Shown here piece after piece: positions 1-5,399 of a stretch of DNA of 5,399 bases. The notes beneath the pieces were generated by a model. The model did no database searches and was not told the DNA's origin. It worked only from the letters and a program-made list of their open reading frames with translations. The stretch covers positions 1 to 5,399 of the forward strand of contig JAHILE010000033.1 of the NCBI GenBank assembly GCA_018897155.1, written 5' to 3'. This DNA comes from Nanoarchaeota archaeon (GTDB lineage: Archaea > EX4484-52 > LFW-46). A program made the position numbers and the translations under genes. Positions within the stretch are counted from its first letter, which is position 1; each line of letters opens with the position of its first letter.

Positions 1-411
1 AACGCATTTTCTTATTTTGCGATTGTCGGAGAGAAAGCGCAGGCGGCTCAAACCTCGCCTCCCGCTGCTGAGCCGCCTAAGGAGACGGTTAAAGAGGAAA
101 CAACTGATGAACAGCCGAAAGAGCCTGACGCGCCTGTTGTTGAAGAGCCGAAGGCAACGCCGCCATACTTTACCTATGTTATCGCCGTGATCATATTGCT
201 TGTCGCGGCTTATGCGGCAACGAAAATAAAGGCGACAAAGGAGGATAAAGCGCCGCGAAACGAGCCTGTTAGCGAACCCACGGCAAAGTATTTTGTGCCG
301 CATCAAGGCAAAAAACCAGAAATTCCAAAAACAAGGATTGCTGCGCAAAAGAACAATCTCGACGACATTGAAAAAAGGCTTGATGCTATAAGGAGGAAGC
401 TGAAGGAATAA
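1..411 (+). CDS. Membrane-anchored surface protein, C-terminal part (5' end outside window)
   Basis: The frame is open from base 1 to the TAA at 409-411, giving 136 visible residues. A GTG at 187 is internal, because the frame continues upstream without a stop. Residues 1-12 (NAFSYFAIVGEK) resemble the closing strand of PGF-pre-PGF-type domains of archaeal surface proteins; that match is from memory and tentative. Residues 18-55 form a low-complexity Pro/Glu/Lys/Thr linker. Residues 56-74 are a hydrophobic helix (core YVIAVIILLVAAYAA), followed at once by basic residues (KIKATK), so the tail should be cytoplasmic and the missing N-terminal part outside the cell. Residues 116-136 are charged and probably helical or coiled coil (ending DDIEKRLDAIRRKLKE). 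I infer a single-pass anchored cell-surface protein; its external function cannot be told from this fragment. The gene ends about 20 bases before the ATPase promoter, so the two are separate transcription units. Confidence 0.8.
   Translation, partial: NAFSYFAIVGEKAQAAQTSPPAAEPPKETVKEETTDEQPKEPDAPVVEEPKATPPYFTYVIAVIILLVAAYAATKIKATKEDKAPRNEPVSEPTAKYFVPHQGKKPEIPKTRIAAQKNNLDDIEKRLDAIRRKLKE
41..78. repeat. Perfect 10-bp inverted repeat inside the surface-protein linker
   Basis: AGGCGGCTCA at 41-50 is the exact reverse complement of TGAGCCGCCT at 69-78, with an 18-base spacer. It lies within coding sequence for the start of the Pro-rich linker. Bases 46-77 also align without gaps to 1894-1925 (25 of 32 identical), where another hairpin occurs in an intergenic gap. 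It could be a dispersed element or a chance product of GC-rich Ala/Glu/Pro codons. Confidence 0.5.
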
Positions 412-2366: not shown

Positions 2367-2675
2367 TTATCTCAGTACAAACCCAAATGACGATTCAACT
2401 TTCGTCAGTATCTCTTCCCTTGATATATGCAAAGAGCACTTCTTTCGCGATATAATGATGCCATCATCATCCGCGCCAACTACATCAAAGCCGGGATATT
2501 TATCCATCGCGCCGTTCATTTTGCGTAAAATATATATTGCTGGTATGGAGTATAAGTGCTCTCCAGGAGCAAGATTTCCACCCAACTCGCCAAATTGTAT
2601 CATCGGCACTTTTCTCTCTTCATCGTAAACTATCCTGCCTCCATTTCCAACATTAGTTATTTCTCTGTAAGTCAT
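2367..2675 (-). CDS. Unknown 102-residue protein between thiolase and DUF35 genes
   Basis: I do not recognise a family. The protein is small and soluble, with no signal peptide, membrane segment or metal-binding cysteine cluster. It has likely beta strands (GRIVYD, VPMIQFG, FDVVGADDDGIIIS) and a helix-like C-terminal stretch (SREEILTKVESSFGFVL). The start is set at the ATG at 2675, because AGGAAGTGAT ends 4 bases upstream and is nearly the full complement of the archaeal 16S 3' end. An in-frame GTG at 2684 falls inside that Shine-Dalgarno sequence and would add three residues. The strong ribosome site and tight placement in the operon support a real gene. Its position between two genes whose products normally work in one complex suggests a role linked to thiolase/HMG-CoA synthase, but this is inference from context only. 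Confidence 0.75.
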   Translation of the reverse strand: MTYREITNVGNGGRIVYDEERKVPMIQFGELGGNLAPGEHLYSIPAIYILRKMNGAMDKYPGFDVVGADDDGIIISRKKCSLHISREEILTKVESSFGFVLR

Positions 2676-2692
2676 ATGAATCACTTCCTAAA
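2675..2692 (-). promoter_or_regulatory. Extended ribosome binding site of the 102-residue gene
   Basis: Read on the minus strand, AGGAAGTGAT differs at one base from AGGAGGTGAT, the complement of the archaeal 16S 3' end, and is followed by TCAT and the ATG. This is the strongest ribosome site in the window. The same GTGAT-N4-ATG spacing recurs at the MNT1 and thiolase starts. Confidence 0.65.
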
Positions 2693-2724: not shown

Positions 2725-2749
2725 TTTTCAAACGCTTAGCGTTTGAAAA
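2725..2749. repeat. Perfect palindrome centred on the thiolase stop codon
   Basis: TTTTCAAACGC at 2725-2735 and GCGTTTGAAAA at 2739-2749 are perfect reverse complements, with only the three bases of the thiolase stop codon (TAA on the minus strand) between them. As RNA this is an 11-bp stem with a UAA loop. It could mark the 3' end of the upstream message, stabilise it, or tune expression of the two genes downstream. No U-run follows directly, so it is not a standard intrinsic terminator; a T-run occurs about 30 bases further on. Confidence 0.7.
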
Positions 2750-3902
2750 TATGCACAACCGCAGTCGCGCCGCTTCCGCCGACATTGTGCGTCATTCCGA
2801 TTTCTGCGCCTTTGACCTGCCTTGCGCCGGCTTCACCGCGCAATTGCATAACGATTTCACATGCTTGTTTTATTCCTGTTGCGCCGACAGGGTGTCCGCA
2901 TGCTTTGAGCCCTCCTGAAGTATTAAATGGAATTTTTCCGCCGAGCTTTGTGTTTCCTTCCTCGATGAATTTAGCGCCTTTGCCCTTTTCCGCAAAGCCC
3001 AAATCCTCAACTGCCATAAGCTCTGCAATCGTAAAGCAATCATGAACTTCCACAACATTGATGTCCTTTGGCGCGACTCCTGCCTGCTTGTATGCAGCTC
3101 TAGATGCCATTATTGTCGCATCAAGCCTTGTGAGTGATTTTCTCTGCGCAAGAGCCAAACTGTCTGATGCCTGCCCTGAGCCGACAACATAAACCGGATT
3201 GCTTGTGTATTTCTTCGCAATGTCCTCCCTGCATAGAATCATTGCCGCCGCGCCGTCTGAAACAGGCGAACAGTCAAGAAGAGTAAGCGGATCTGCAACC
3301 ATTGTCGCATTCAGGACTTGATCGATTGTAATCTTGTTCTTGAACTGAGCAATCGGATTCATTGAGCCGTGCTCGTGGTTTTTCACGGAAATTGCAGCAA
3401 GCTGCTCGCGCTTTGTTCCATATTCATGCATATGCCTTCGCGCCATCAAAGCATAAAGGCCCGGAAATGTCAAACCCTGGAAGCCTTCCCATTCCTCGTC
3501 TGCCGCGCCCATCAAAGTTGTCGTGACCTGGTCGCCGGACATGTCGGTCATTTTTTCCGCGCCTCCGACAAGAACCATGTTATGCTGGCCTGAAAGTATT
3601 GAGAATAGTCCCTGCCTTAACGCAAGTCCGCCGGATGCGCAAGCTGCTTCTACGCGAGTTGCAGGAATAGTCATGCCAATCTGATCTGCAACAAGCGCGC
3701 CTAAATGCTCTTGTCCTGTAAGCCGGCCGCTCGCCATATTTCCGATAAACATCGCATCGATTTCCTTTCCTTCTATCTTCGCATCGGTTACTGCTTTTAC
3801 CCCTGCCTCAAGCGCGAGGTTTCGAAGGCCCTTTTCCCAATGCTCGCCGAATTTAGTAAGGCCTAATCCTATGACTGCAACTCGAAATTTTGGACTGTCC
3901 AT
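2736..3902 (-). CDS. Acetyl-CoA acetyltransferase (archaeal thiolase)
   Basis: This 388-residue thiolase-fold enzyme is full length for the archaeal acetoacetyl-CoA thiolase/SCPx-like family. The reaction is condensation of two acetyl-CoA to acetoacetyl-CoA, the first step of the mevalonate (isoprenoid lipid) pathway. Numbering from the ATG at 3902, the nucleophile is C88 in EAACASGG, a conserved His is H287 in EVHDCF, and C335-G-H337-P lies in the [14 protein letters not shown] motif. The C-terminus has the glycine-rich HNVGGSGAT loop. The N-terminal [13 protein letters not shown] strand is typical of the family; MDSPKF before it is a short extension. The ATG is preferred over the GTG at 3911, since GTGAT looks like a ribosome site 4 bases before the ATG; the GTG would overlap the HEPN1 stop. 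The sequence around this start is nearly identical to that of MNT1. A DUF35 gene lies two genes downstream, as expected for the archaeal thiolase/HMG-CoA synthase complex. Other thiolase substrates cannot be excluded. Confidence 0.92.
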
Positions 3903-3918
3903 AAAAATCACACATTAT
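3883..3918. repeat. Junction repeat, copy A (HEPN1 end / thiolase start)
   Basis: Bases 3883-3911 match 4573-4601 at 28 of 29 positions. The match continues into ACATTAT versus ATTAT, with a 2-base CA indel. On the minus strand the block holds the HEPN1 stop, the GTGAT ribosome-site-like sequence, the thiolase ATG and its first codons (MDSPKFR). Confidence 0.85.
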
Positions 3919-4267
3919 CTTCTTCTGCTTTGATGATATTTTGTATTTTGCCCTTTAATGTGGGAATGTCATTTTCTGCTGTTTCCCATACAGCATCAAA
4001 ATCGACGCCGAAGTAACTATGTATCAATTTGTCCCTCATTCCAGCCATGTCTTTCCATGGAATGTCGGGATACTTCTTTCTCATGTTGTCTGATAAGTTT
4101 TTTGTAGCTTCGCCGATTATTTCAATCTGGCGCACAATCCCATCGCGGAGCAATTTCTTTCGGTTGCTGATAAATTCGTCGTAATCTATATTTTGGAGAT
4201 ATTCCTCAATGGTCAACATGGCGTCAAAAATATGCTTCAGATACACGAGATCGTCTTTACGCCCCAT
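3908..4267 (-). CDS. hepT: HEPN toxin of type VII pair 1 (HepT-like, DUF86)
   Basis: This 119-residue all-helical protein is of HepT/DUF86 type. The HEPN ribonuclease motif is R78-DKLI-H83, followed by Y85, i.e. the full RX4HXY motif. Family features include IIGEATKN (about 50-57), DIPW (68-71) and HSYFGVD (83-89). Known HepT toxins cut RNA, including tRNA 3' ends in a studied cyanobacterial case, and are neutralised when the MNT partner adds AMP residues to the motif tyrosine, which is present here. Its ATG overlaps the end of MNT1 by 11 bases, so translation is probably coupled and the antitoxin is made first. The TGA at 3908-3910 is 5 bases before the thiolase ATG, placing a toxin gene directly upstream of a metabolic gene. 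The protein is complete with no lost residues, so it is probably active. The symbol is by family only. Confidence 0.9.
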
Positions 4268-4592
4268 AAATAACCTCTGCTTCTTTTTTTATCCGGTCTT
4301 TCAGATACGGACTTATGGCGTTTTCAGTGAGCAAATCCACCTTTTTCCCCACTTCTTCGGATACTTCCCGCTCGATTCTTACAAAATCAAGGAGGCTTTT
4401 CCTATCTCTGAACTCCACAAGCACATCAATATCGCTTTTAGGCGTTTGCTCTCCGCGCGCATAAGAGCCGAAAATGCGGATTCTCTTTGCTCCGCGCCTG
4501 GAGAGAGAGTAAACGAGTTTTTTTATAACTGCATCGCGGCTGACTCTATTTGCCGACATCTTCCTATCAATGCGAAATTTTGGATTGTCCAT
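4257..4592 (-). CDS. mntA: MNT nucleotidyltransferase antitoxin of pair 1 (MntA-like)
   Basis: This minimal nucleotidyltransferase has 111 residues from the ATG at 4592. It carries the complete GSX10DXD motif (G42-S43, D54, D56 in IFGSYARGE...KSDIDVLVEF) and a third acidic residue D86 in KKVDLLT. MntA antitoxins of type VII systems use this site to transfer AMP to a tyrosine in the HEPN toxin. The gene precedes and overlaps HEPN1, the usual order. The start is uncertain: TTG 4625 and GTG 4601 also lie in frame. The ATG at 4592 has GTGAT 4 bases upstream. A later ATG at 4559 would remove MDNPKFRIDRK, which is not part of the usual MNT fold and matches the thiolase N-terminus at the DNA level. 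The HEPN2 stop lies 10 bases upstream of the chosen start. The symbol is by family only. Confidence 0.9.
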   Translation of the reverse strand: MDNPKFRIDRKMSANRVSRDAVIKKLVYSLSRRGAKRIRIFGSYARGEQTPKSDIDVLVEFRDRKSLLDFVRIEREVSEEVGKKVDLLTENAISPYLKDRIKKEAEVIYGA

Positions 4593-4606
4593 AAAAATCA
4601 CATTAT
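4573..4606. repeat. Junction repeat, copy B (HEPN2 end / MNT1 start)
   Basis: This is the partner of 3883-3918. On the minus strand it holds the HEPN2 stop region, GTGATTTTTATG and the codons for MDNPKFR. Together with copy A it flanks the MNT1-HEPN1 pair as a direct repeat about 690 bp apart. A more diverged third copy lies at the MNT2 start. Confidence 0.85.
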
Positions 4607-4968
4607 TTATTTGAATCCTCAACAATTAAAATATTTTTCAACATTACTTCTATTTTAGGCTTTGTTTCCGGAATATTTTTTGTCACAATTTGCCAGATAA
4701 TGCTTAAATCGACTCCGAAGTATTCGTGAATTGCAATGTTTCTTAGCCCGAGCATCCTGCTCCACGGAATTTCAGAATATAGTTTCCTAATCTCCAATGG
4801 TATGTTCTTTGATGCTTCGCCGATTATTTCAAGGTTTCTTATAACTGCATCCACAACCAGCTTGTTTTCCGAAAATTTTTCATAATTCATATTGCGGGTG
4901 TATGCTTGGATTCTATTCATTGACTCCAAAATATCTTCAACGAATAATTTGTACGACCGCTTAAGCAT
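4603..4968 (-). CDS. hepT: HEPN toxin of type VII pair 2 (HepT-like, DUF86)
   Basis: This 121-residue HepT/DUF86 protein has the motif R76-NIAI-H81 and Y83 (RX4HXY), numbered from the ATG at 4968. It shares the blocks IIGEASKN, EIPW and HEYFGVD with HEPN1, and is otherwise well diverged, with a longer C-terminal tail (MLKNILIVEDSNK). The two are paralogues or relatives acquired separately, not a recent copy. The ATG at 4968 overlaps the MNT2 stop by 8 bases; a TTG at 4974 would add two residues and is less likely. A predicted RNase toxin neutralised by AMP addition at Y83 by its partner is the family role. All active-site residues are present. Whether each antitoxin acts only on its own toxin or also on the other cannot be told. 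The symbol is by family only. Confidence 0.9.
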   Translation of the reverse strand: MLKRSYKLFVEDILESMNRIQAYTRNMNYEKFSENKLVVDAVIRNLEIIGEASKNIPLEIRKLYSEIPWSRMLGLRNIAIHEYFGVDLSIIWQIVTKNIPETKPKIEVMLKNILIVEDSNK

Positions 4969-5305
4969 AAACAACCTCTTTCAGTATGCCGGCTTTTAAT
5001 TGCGGTTTAAGGGCGCCGCGCGTAACCAAATCAATTTCTTTGCCCAAAATGCTTTCAAGATATTCTTTAAGGTCTATAAACTCCCAGCCCACGGGCTCGT
5101 AAAACTCAACAAGGATATCTATGTCGCTTTTTTTCGATTCCTCGCCCCTTGCATAAGAGCCAAACACGCCGATTTCCTTGACTTTGAACTTCTCTTTTAA
5201 AATCGGCTTATTTTCCTTTAAAACGGTTTCAATTTCTTTCAGGGTTTTTGGCTGTTTGCGCATTTCTGCCGTTTTGGCGCGGAATTTTAGATTATTCATA
5301 ATCAT
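4961..5305 (-). CDS. mntA: MNT nucleotidyltransferase antitoxin of pair 2 (MntA-like)
   Basis: This minimal nucleotidyltransferase has up to 114 residues. GSX10DXD is complete (G49-S50, D61, D63 in VFGSYARGE...KSDIDILVEF), with a third acidic residue D92 in GKEIDLVTRGALKP. It differs from MNT1 outside the motif, including a longer N-terminal helix (TLKEIETVLKENKPILKEKF). The ATG at 5305 overlaps the upstream gene's TGA as ATGA. A second ATG at 5299 aligns with the starts of MNT1 and the thiolase, and an ATG at 5263 is where the usual MNT fold would begin. The leading MNNLKFR is a diverged form of the MDNPKFR seen at the other two junctions. It likely adds AMP residues to HEPN2, which it overlaps. 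The symbol is by family only. Confidence 0.9.
   Translation of the reverse strand: MIMNNLKFRAKTAEMRKQPKTLKEIETVLKENKPILKEKFKVKEIGVFGSYARGEESKKSDIDILVEFYEPVGWEFIDLKEYLESILGKEIDLVTRGALKPQLKAGILKEVVYA
5278..5305. repeat. Junction repeat, copy C (diverged, MNT2 start)
   Basis: On the minus strand TGATT-ATGAATAATCTAAAATTCCG aligns with TGATTTTTATGGACAATCCAAAATTTCG of copy B after a 3-base gap. Within the first seven codons from the ATG at 5299, 17 of 21 bases match the MNT1 start. It is older or more diverged than copies A and B. Confidence 0.5.
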
Positions 5306-5399
5306 TCACTTACGCATATTCTAGTTCCCAAATCCAGCTTATCCACCATATCCTGACGTTTCTTATATATTGGAGTATCGCTTATACCGAGATTTGTTC
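5302..5399 (-). CDS. Unidentified protein, C-terminal 31 residues (5' end outside window)
   Basis: On the minus strand an open frame enters at the window edge (first full codon at 5397) and ends with TGA at 5302-5304. It reads TNLGISDTPIYKKRQDMV, then DKLDLGTRICVSE. The TGA overlaps the MNT2 ATG in an ATGA arrangement, which supports a real gene in the same operon. The fragment is too short to identify. HMG-CoA synthase is a candidate because it is commonly encoded next to archaeal thiolase and DUF35 genes, but the residues do not prove it. An unrelated operon member is equally possible. Confidence 0.5.
   Translation of the reverse strand, partial: TNLGISDTPIYKKRQDMVDKLDLGTRICVSE

Follow-up and report, generated by a model that had tools for sequence, protein, structure and literature searches.

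Gene organization at the thiolase locus

The window, that is the whole stretch of 5,399 nucleotides analysed here, is a contig of a Nanoarchaeota archaeon genome (GCA_018897155.1, hereafter G000), and it was compared above all with a same-genus genome, G001. Two MNT-HEPN pairs stand in series ahead of an isoprenoid-pathway thiolase gene, and along the coding (minus) strand the order of genes is MNT2, HEPN2, MNT1, HEPN1, thiolase, a small ORF and a DUF35-type OB protein. The features of the locus are as follows:

2736..3902, minus strand: thiolase of the archaeal acetyl-CoA acetyltransferase type, 388 aa (Pfam PF22691/PF00108)
3883..3918, minus strand: block copy S1, covering the HEPN1 stop codon, GTGAT and the thiolase ATG with the first 7 codons (MDSPKFR)
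3908..4267, minus strand: HEPN1, predicted HepT-like RNase toxin, motif RDKLIHSY (PF01934, E=8e-27)
3919..4572, minus strand: putative inserted unit 1, 654 nt, lying between S2 and S1 (from the S1/S2 coordinates)
4257..4592, minus strand: MNT1, MntA-like nucleotidyltransferase and predicted antitoxin, motif GSX10DXD (PF01909, E=2.2e-18)
4573..4606, minus strand: block copy S2, covering the HEPN2 stop codon, GTGAT and the MNT1 ATG with the first 7 codons (MDNPKFR)
4603..4974, minus strand: HEPN2, predicted HepT-like RNase toxin, motif RNIAIHEY (PF01934, E=6.7e-30)
4607..5279, minus strand: putative inserted unit 2, 673 nt, lying between S3 and S2 (from the S2/S3 coordinates)
4961..5299, minus strand: MNT2, MntA-like predicted antitoxin (PF01909, E=1.5e-19)
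5280..5299, minus strand: block copy S3, covering the MNT2 ATG with the first codons (MNNLKFR), sequence ATGAATAATCTAAAATTCCG
5302..5399, minus strand: 3' end of an orphan ORF (C9:44-634, 196 aa) between the HMG-CoA synthase gene and MNT2 (from the exact overlap of the window with contig C9)

The thiolase scores 584 bits against the NCBIfam subfamily PRK06064 (cut-off 420) and shares 93% amino acid and 83% nucleotide identity with the thiolase of G001. In both pairs the adjacent PF01909 and PF01934 genes exceed the Pfam gathering score, and the motifs that define HepT/MntA (PMC7641770) occur in all four proteins, RX4HXY in both HEPNs and GSX10DXD in both MNTs. Domains and motifs together place both pairs in the HepT/MntA (type VII, HEPN-MNT) class as predicted members and not as certified equivalogs, with scores (33.0, 55.3, 51.6 and 51.6 bits) below the NCBIfam equivalog cut-off of 60 bits for HepT_toxin and MntA_antitoxin. 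The likeness to this class extends to the antitoxin gene standing first and to the overlapping reading frames, which share 11 nt in HEPN1/MNT1 and 14 nt in HEPN2/MNT2. Unlike the known systems, two unrelated modules are found here in series, and their antitoxins carry N-terminal extensions common to a housekeeping gene. The 654- and 673-nt units hold the MNT and HEPN genes only; neither a transposase or integrase nor terminal inverted repeats turned up in them, and the adjoining orphan ORF holds no integrase gene either.

Three copies of a start block

The original prediction described near-identical repeats on both sides of the MNT1-HEPN1 pair, each covering a HEPN gene end, GTGAT, an ATG and the first codons of the next gene, and this description stands. 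Between 3883-3911 and 4573-4601 only one base differs (28/29 identical), and once a gap of 2 bases is allowed (GTGTGAT against GTGAT) the alignment lengthens to 36/34 bases (3883-3918 versus 4573-4606) with one substitution; it then scores 56, against a maximum of 26 among 200 shuffles. Both copies are thus real, but a third one, S3 at the start of MNT2, had been missed. S3 shares 17/20 positions with the G001 thiolase start, 16/20 with MNT1 and 15/20 with the local thiolase, and matches only loosely outside the coding half; the best of 230 unrelated ORF starts matches no more than 14/20 positions of any block start, the G001 thiolase start included. Near the MNT2 start, at 5305, there is a further in-frame ATG. 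The block copies are spaced 690 and 707 nt apart, and the similarity ends after AAATTYCG in every copy. The GTGAT of the block pairs with the 16S 3' end (GGATCACCTCC), thus S1 and S2 are each likely to bring a ribosome site.

The 20-base coding part of the block encodes M-D/N-N/S-x-K-F-R. A search of 35 genomes with a degenerate 20-base pattern, allowing at most one mismatch, returned only the three block starts in G000 (one of them counted twice owing to the contig overlap), the thiolase start of G001 and one stray match with one mismatch. On the other hand, the 12-base non-coding leader half, GTGATTTTTATG, recurs in this genus as an initiation sequence, with 6 exact sites in G000, 9 in G001 and 0 in the reversed control; the significance is therefore carried by the coding half. 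The possibility that the block is a common initiation sequence had been named beforehand as grounds for rejection, and it holds for the leader but not for the coding half, which is unique among the 35 genomes. The block is absent from all other MNT genes inspected in G000, G001 and relatives. A mobile-element source was also considered and rejected, as the sole exact match in viral contigs is out of frame within a coding region and is put down to chance; no MNT1 relative was found in the viral contigs.

Close homologues of MNT1 align with it only from residue 15 on, mostly from 20-24, and those nearest to MNT2 from residue 20; in both cases the alignment begins at the start codon of the homologue. 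Since the homologues begin after it, M-D/N-N-x-K-F-R is an added N-terminus on both antitoxins, and residues 1 to about 11 of MNT1, like the first residues of MNT2, appear to be a grafted extension. The block would thereby serve as the translation start of the antitoxins.

Single-copy empty site in a same-genus genome

In G001, the HMG-CoA synthase gene is followed by 12 bases and then by a thiolase gene with exactly one block copy, GGTGATTTTTATGGATAATTCAAAATTCCG; there is no MNT-HEPN pair at this place and no pair remnant in the 12-base gap. An empty site with one copy of the junction is what the original prediction had proposed to look for in relatives. The same interval in G000 holds the orphan ORF and MNT2-HEPN2-MNT1-HEPN1, in a neighbourhood that we infer by joining the window to contig C9 through a 141-nt assembly overlap and not from a read-through contig. 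Bases 5259-5399, the final 141 of the window, are identical to G000:C9:1-141, which looks like an assembly-graph overlap, and the C9 side of the join holds the HMG-CoA synthase gene (C9:631-1752) and the orphan 196-aa ORF, followed by MNT2. The orphan ORF has no Pfam match and no relative in G001. The end of the window at the MNT2 start is probably an assembly-graph branch and may mark strain variation at the locus.

The thiolase gene directly follows the end of an HMG-CoA-synthase-like gene in at least 15 further archaeal genomes. The MDxxKF extension is present in 0 of the thiolases of 28 other genomes, and the block appears from these comparisons to be a thiolase N-terminal extension of this genus only; 80 thiolase loci from named genomes yielded no further member of the genus. 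The comparison is based on one metagenome-assembled genome and one sister genome, and the polarity rests on one genome, since the genus offers just one empty site. Within this comparison, a direct repeat that flanks the unit in G000 is present as a single copy at the empty site in G001, as in a target-site duplication, and att-like direct repeats flank the unit next to a restored target gene, as in dusA-type islands.

Ancestry and timing of the two pairs

MNT1 and MNT2 are 40-42% identical in amino acids; outside the block they share about 40% amino acid and 50% nucleotide identity, and HEPN1 and HEPN2 share 40% and 55%, with synonymous sites saturated in both comparisons, as against 97% nucleotide identity inside the block. 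The statement that the toxins and antitoxins are far more diverged than their junctions was thus well founded, and so was the rejection of a recent tandem duplication of the pair. In the tree of 29 sequences, MNT1, whose nearest kin is in G031 (61%), and MNT2, whose nearest kin are the MNTs of the ATPase operons of G000 and G001 (60-64%), are set apart by a branch with 98/96 support. MNT1 and MNT2 were sisters in 0 of 200 bootstrap trees, and HEPN1 and HEPN2 were never sisters either. Since the two antitoxins belong to different supported clades, a tandem duplication is very unlikely, which leaves two unrelated pairs with a common in-frame junction. The original prediction had seen that unrelated starts share the block, but had missed both the use of the same junction by two unrelated pairs and the extension on both antitoxins. 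The ATPase-operon pair is itself orthologous between the two genomes, L216 (G001:C53) and L217 (G000:C23), and lies between subunits F and A (Pfam) of a V/A-type ATPase operon.

The block is short, and statements on the timing of S1, S2 and S3 are therefore rough. The thiolases of G000 and G001 have a dS of about 1.03, and S1 and S2 differ at 1/29 positions, thus the copying (or conversion) between S1 and S2 would be much younger than the split of the two species. S3 is about as diverged from the other copies as the thiolase starts of the two species are from each other, which suggests that it is older.

Proposed serial insertion at the thiolase start

We propose, with a probability of about 0.6, that two unrelated MNT-HEPN pairs inserted successively at the thiolase start, each duplicating the start block. 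The ancestral thiolase of the genus would already have started with GTGATTTTTATGGA..AAATTYCG (MDNSKFR), and the insertion point would have been just after thiolase codon 7 both times. Upon each insertion the start block would have been duplicated, so that the upstream copy, next to the old ribosome site as before, started the incoming antitoxin in frame, and the downstream copy gave the thiolase a complete start. The HMG-CoA synthase-thiolase operon would thus keep working with neither frame lost, because the old start goes to the antitoxin and the thiolase is made whole by the new copy. MNT2-HEPN2 would have come first, leaving the diverged S3, and MNT1-HEPN1 later, leaving the near-identical S2 and S1, well after the split from G001. 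Serial insertion predicts a single-copy empty site, in-frame extensions and a common end point of the copies, and all three are seen. Between insertion with duplication of the target and gene conversion, the two readings offered originally, insertion is favoured, short of proof. A target duplication of 20-36 bp is long for common transposases.

Alternatively, the block may have arrived with an MNT-HEPN element, for instance as an attachment or start site, with the thiolase extension derived from it and the pair of G001 lost again by recombination between copies, one of which was left. Thiolases outside the genus lack the extension, which would make it a novelty there too, recombination between copies of the block would presumably delete a pair precisely, and elements that give a target gene a new 5' end are known at dusA (PMC4482086). 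However, the other MNT genes looked at in G000, G001 and relatives lack the block, nor does the 12-base gap of G001 retain any trace of a pair; we thus consider a cassette origin of the block unlikely.

In the case of gene conversion, the pairs would have arrived without target duplication, and short-tract conversion from the thiolase start would have overwritten the antitoxin starts, or the reverse. The near-identity of S1 and S2 is also expected from recent conversion, and the tract in common is short, with the start at its centre. Conversion, however, needs prior similarity at the site, which MNT homologues without such an N-terminus do not offer, and it would have to place the same in-frame extension on two unrelated MNTs with the same end after AAATTYCG. 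Duplication by insertion is therefore preferred, and conversion seems a rather improbable source of the three copies.

Convergence of the starts, or selection at each of them for a common translation-initiation signal, agrees with the recurrence of the leader in the genus and with the pairing of GTGAT, but it is very improbable since the next 17 coding bases are common too and are found nowhere else. Least credible of all is that one start-MNT-HEPN unit was duplicated in tandem and its proteins then diverged; the gene order, the similar spacing and the shared junction would point to this, but the trees and identities effectively rule it out.

MNT-HEPN ranks with the most frequent mobile gene pairs of archaea, and a recent insertion into the lysine operon of Thermus thermophilus HB8, absent in HB27, as well as a case in Deinococcus, was reported in 2009 (PMC2701414). 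As at the thiolase, those pairs lie within a biosynthetic operon of one genome and are absent in a close relative, so that entry of MNT-HEPN into operons, with the site empty in a relative, is already known, but the parts of that report available to us describe no junction repeat, start duplication or reuse of a site (PMC2701414). The dusA-specific genomic islands are inserted in a housekeeping gene, within its 5' end, with 21-28 bp imperfect direct repeats and a usable 5' end provided for the target (PMC4482086). The thiolase locus resembles them in the 5'-end insertion, the att-like direct repeats and the restored target, but the dusA islands carry their own integrase, whereas the units of about 650-670 bp found here have no recombinase, and the displaced start would be used by their cargo gene.

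We know of no described mechanism by which MNT-HEPN pairs land inside operons, and the literature searched gave no account of target duplication at the start codons of toxin-antitoxin genes. Three features are, as far as could be found, new: a junction formed by the duplicated start, the use of this junction again by an unrelated pair, and antitoxins with a housekeeping N-terminus. The locus can be read as a footprint, with one junction for two unrelated pairs and an empty site in the sister species, and it suggests how such pairs may enter a working operon without breaking the downstream gene: the duplicated start leaves that gene intact and places a housekeeping start ahead of the antitoxin. 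It is conceivable, but quite doubtful, that the start block is an attachment site at which MNT-HEPN cassettes of about 650-670 bp are moved by a trans-acting enzyme, with repeated in-frame insertion at a housekeeping start, which they would take over and restore downstream, and with precise removal through recombination between the copies.

Flanking repeats at other MNT-HEPN pairs

A survey of flanking repeats covered 38 distinct MNT-HEPN pairs, that of the window included, and 3000 control windows, 14 of which reached a score of 36. The pair of the window was chosen for its repeat and is therefore not counted towards generality; besides it, only two loci exceed this score. One is an unrelated pair of another family (L189/L247, G056:C32), which has a perfect 22-bp direct repeat, TGATGCTCTTCTGGAAAAGTTT, at a spacing of 674 bp, compared with 690 and 707 at the thiolase locus. 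The stop codon of a converging PfkB-like gene overlaps the second copy, and the MNT looks frameshifted. The names of the neighbours at this locus, PfkB-like and ELP3-like, were read by eye from the sequence and not from a family search, and its repeat was missed under a stricter pairing rule. The other locus (L193/L251, G055:C36), also of an unrelated family, is a pair next to a DUF35-type gene, on the contig that also carries the thiolase, with an imperfect 44-bp hairpin-like repeat, probably a dispersed repeat. Nearly all of the about 37 other pairs have no flanking repeat and one is a clean case, so that the suggestion of a general route by which cassettes enter operons has found little support so far; two extra cases among about 38 pairs are suggestive only and too few for a rule.

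Other features of the window

The gap between the thiolase and the DUF35-type gene differs by species, with one 105-aa ORF in the window (2367-2684) and two ORFs of 117 and 136 aa in G001 (L039:10675-11490). The left end of the window (1-120) is multi-copy in the genome, with matches in C31 at 99%, in C7 at 79% and in C52, and this is likely the reason for the contig break there. A 39-nt direct repeat (77%) at 46-84 and 1894-1932 of the window flanks a DUF234-type ATPase gene at 472-1872.
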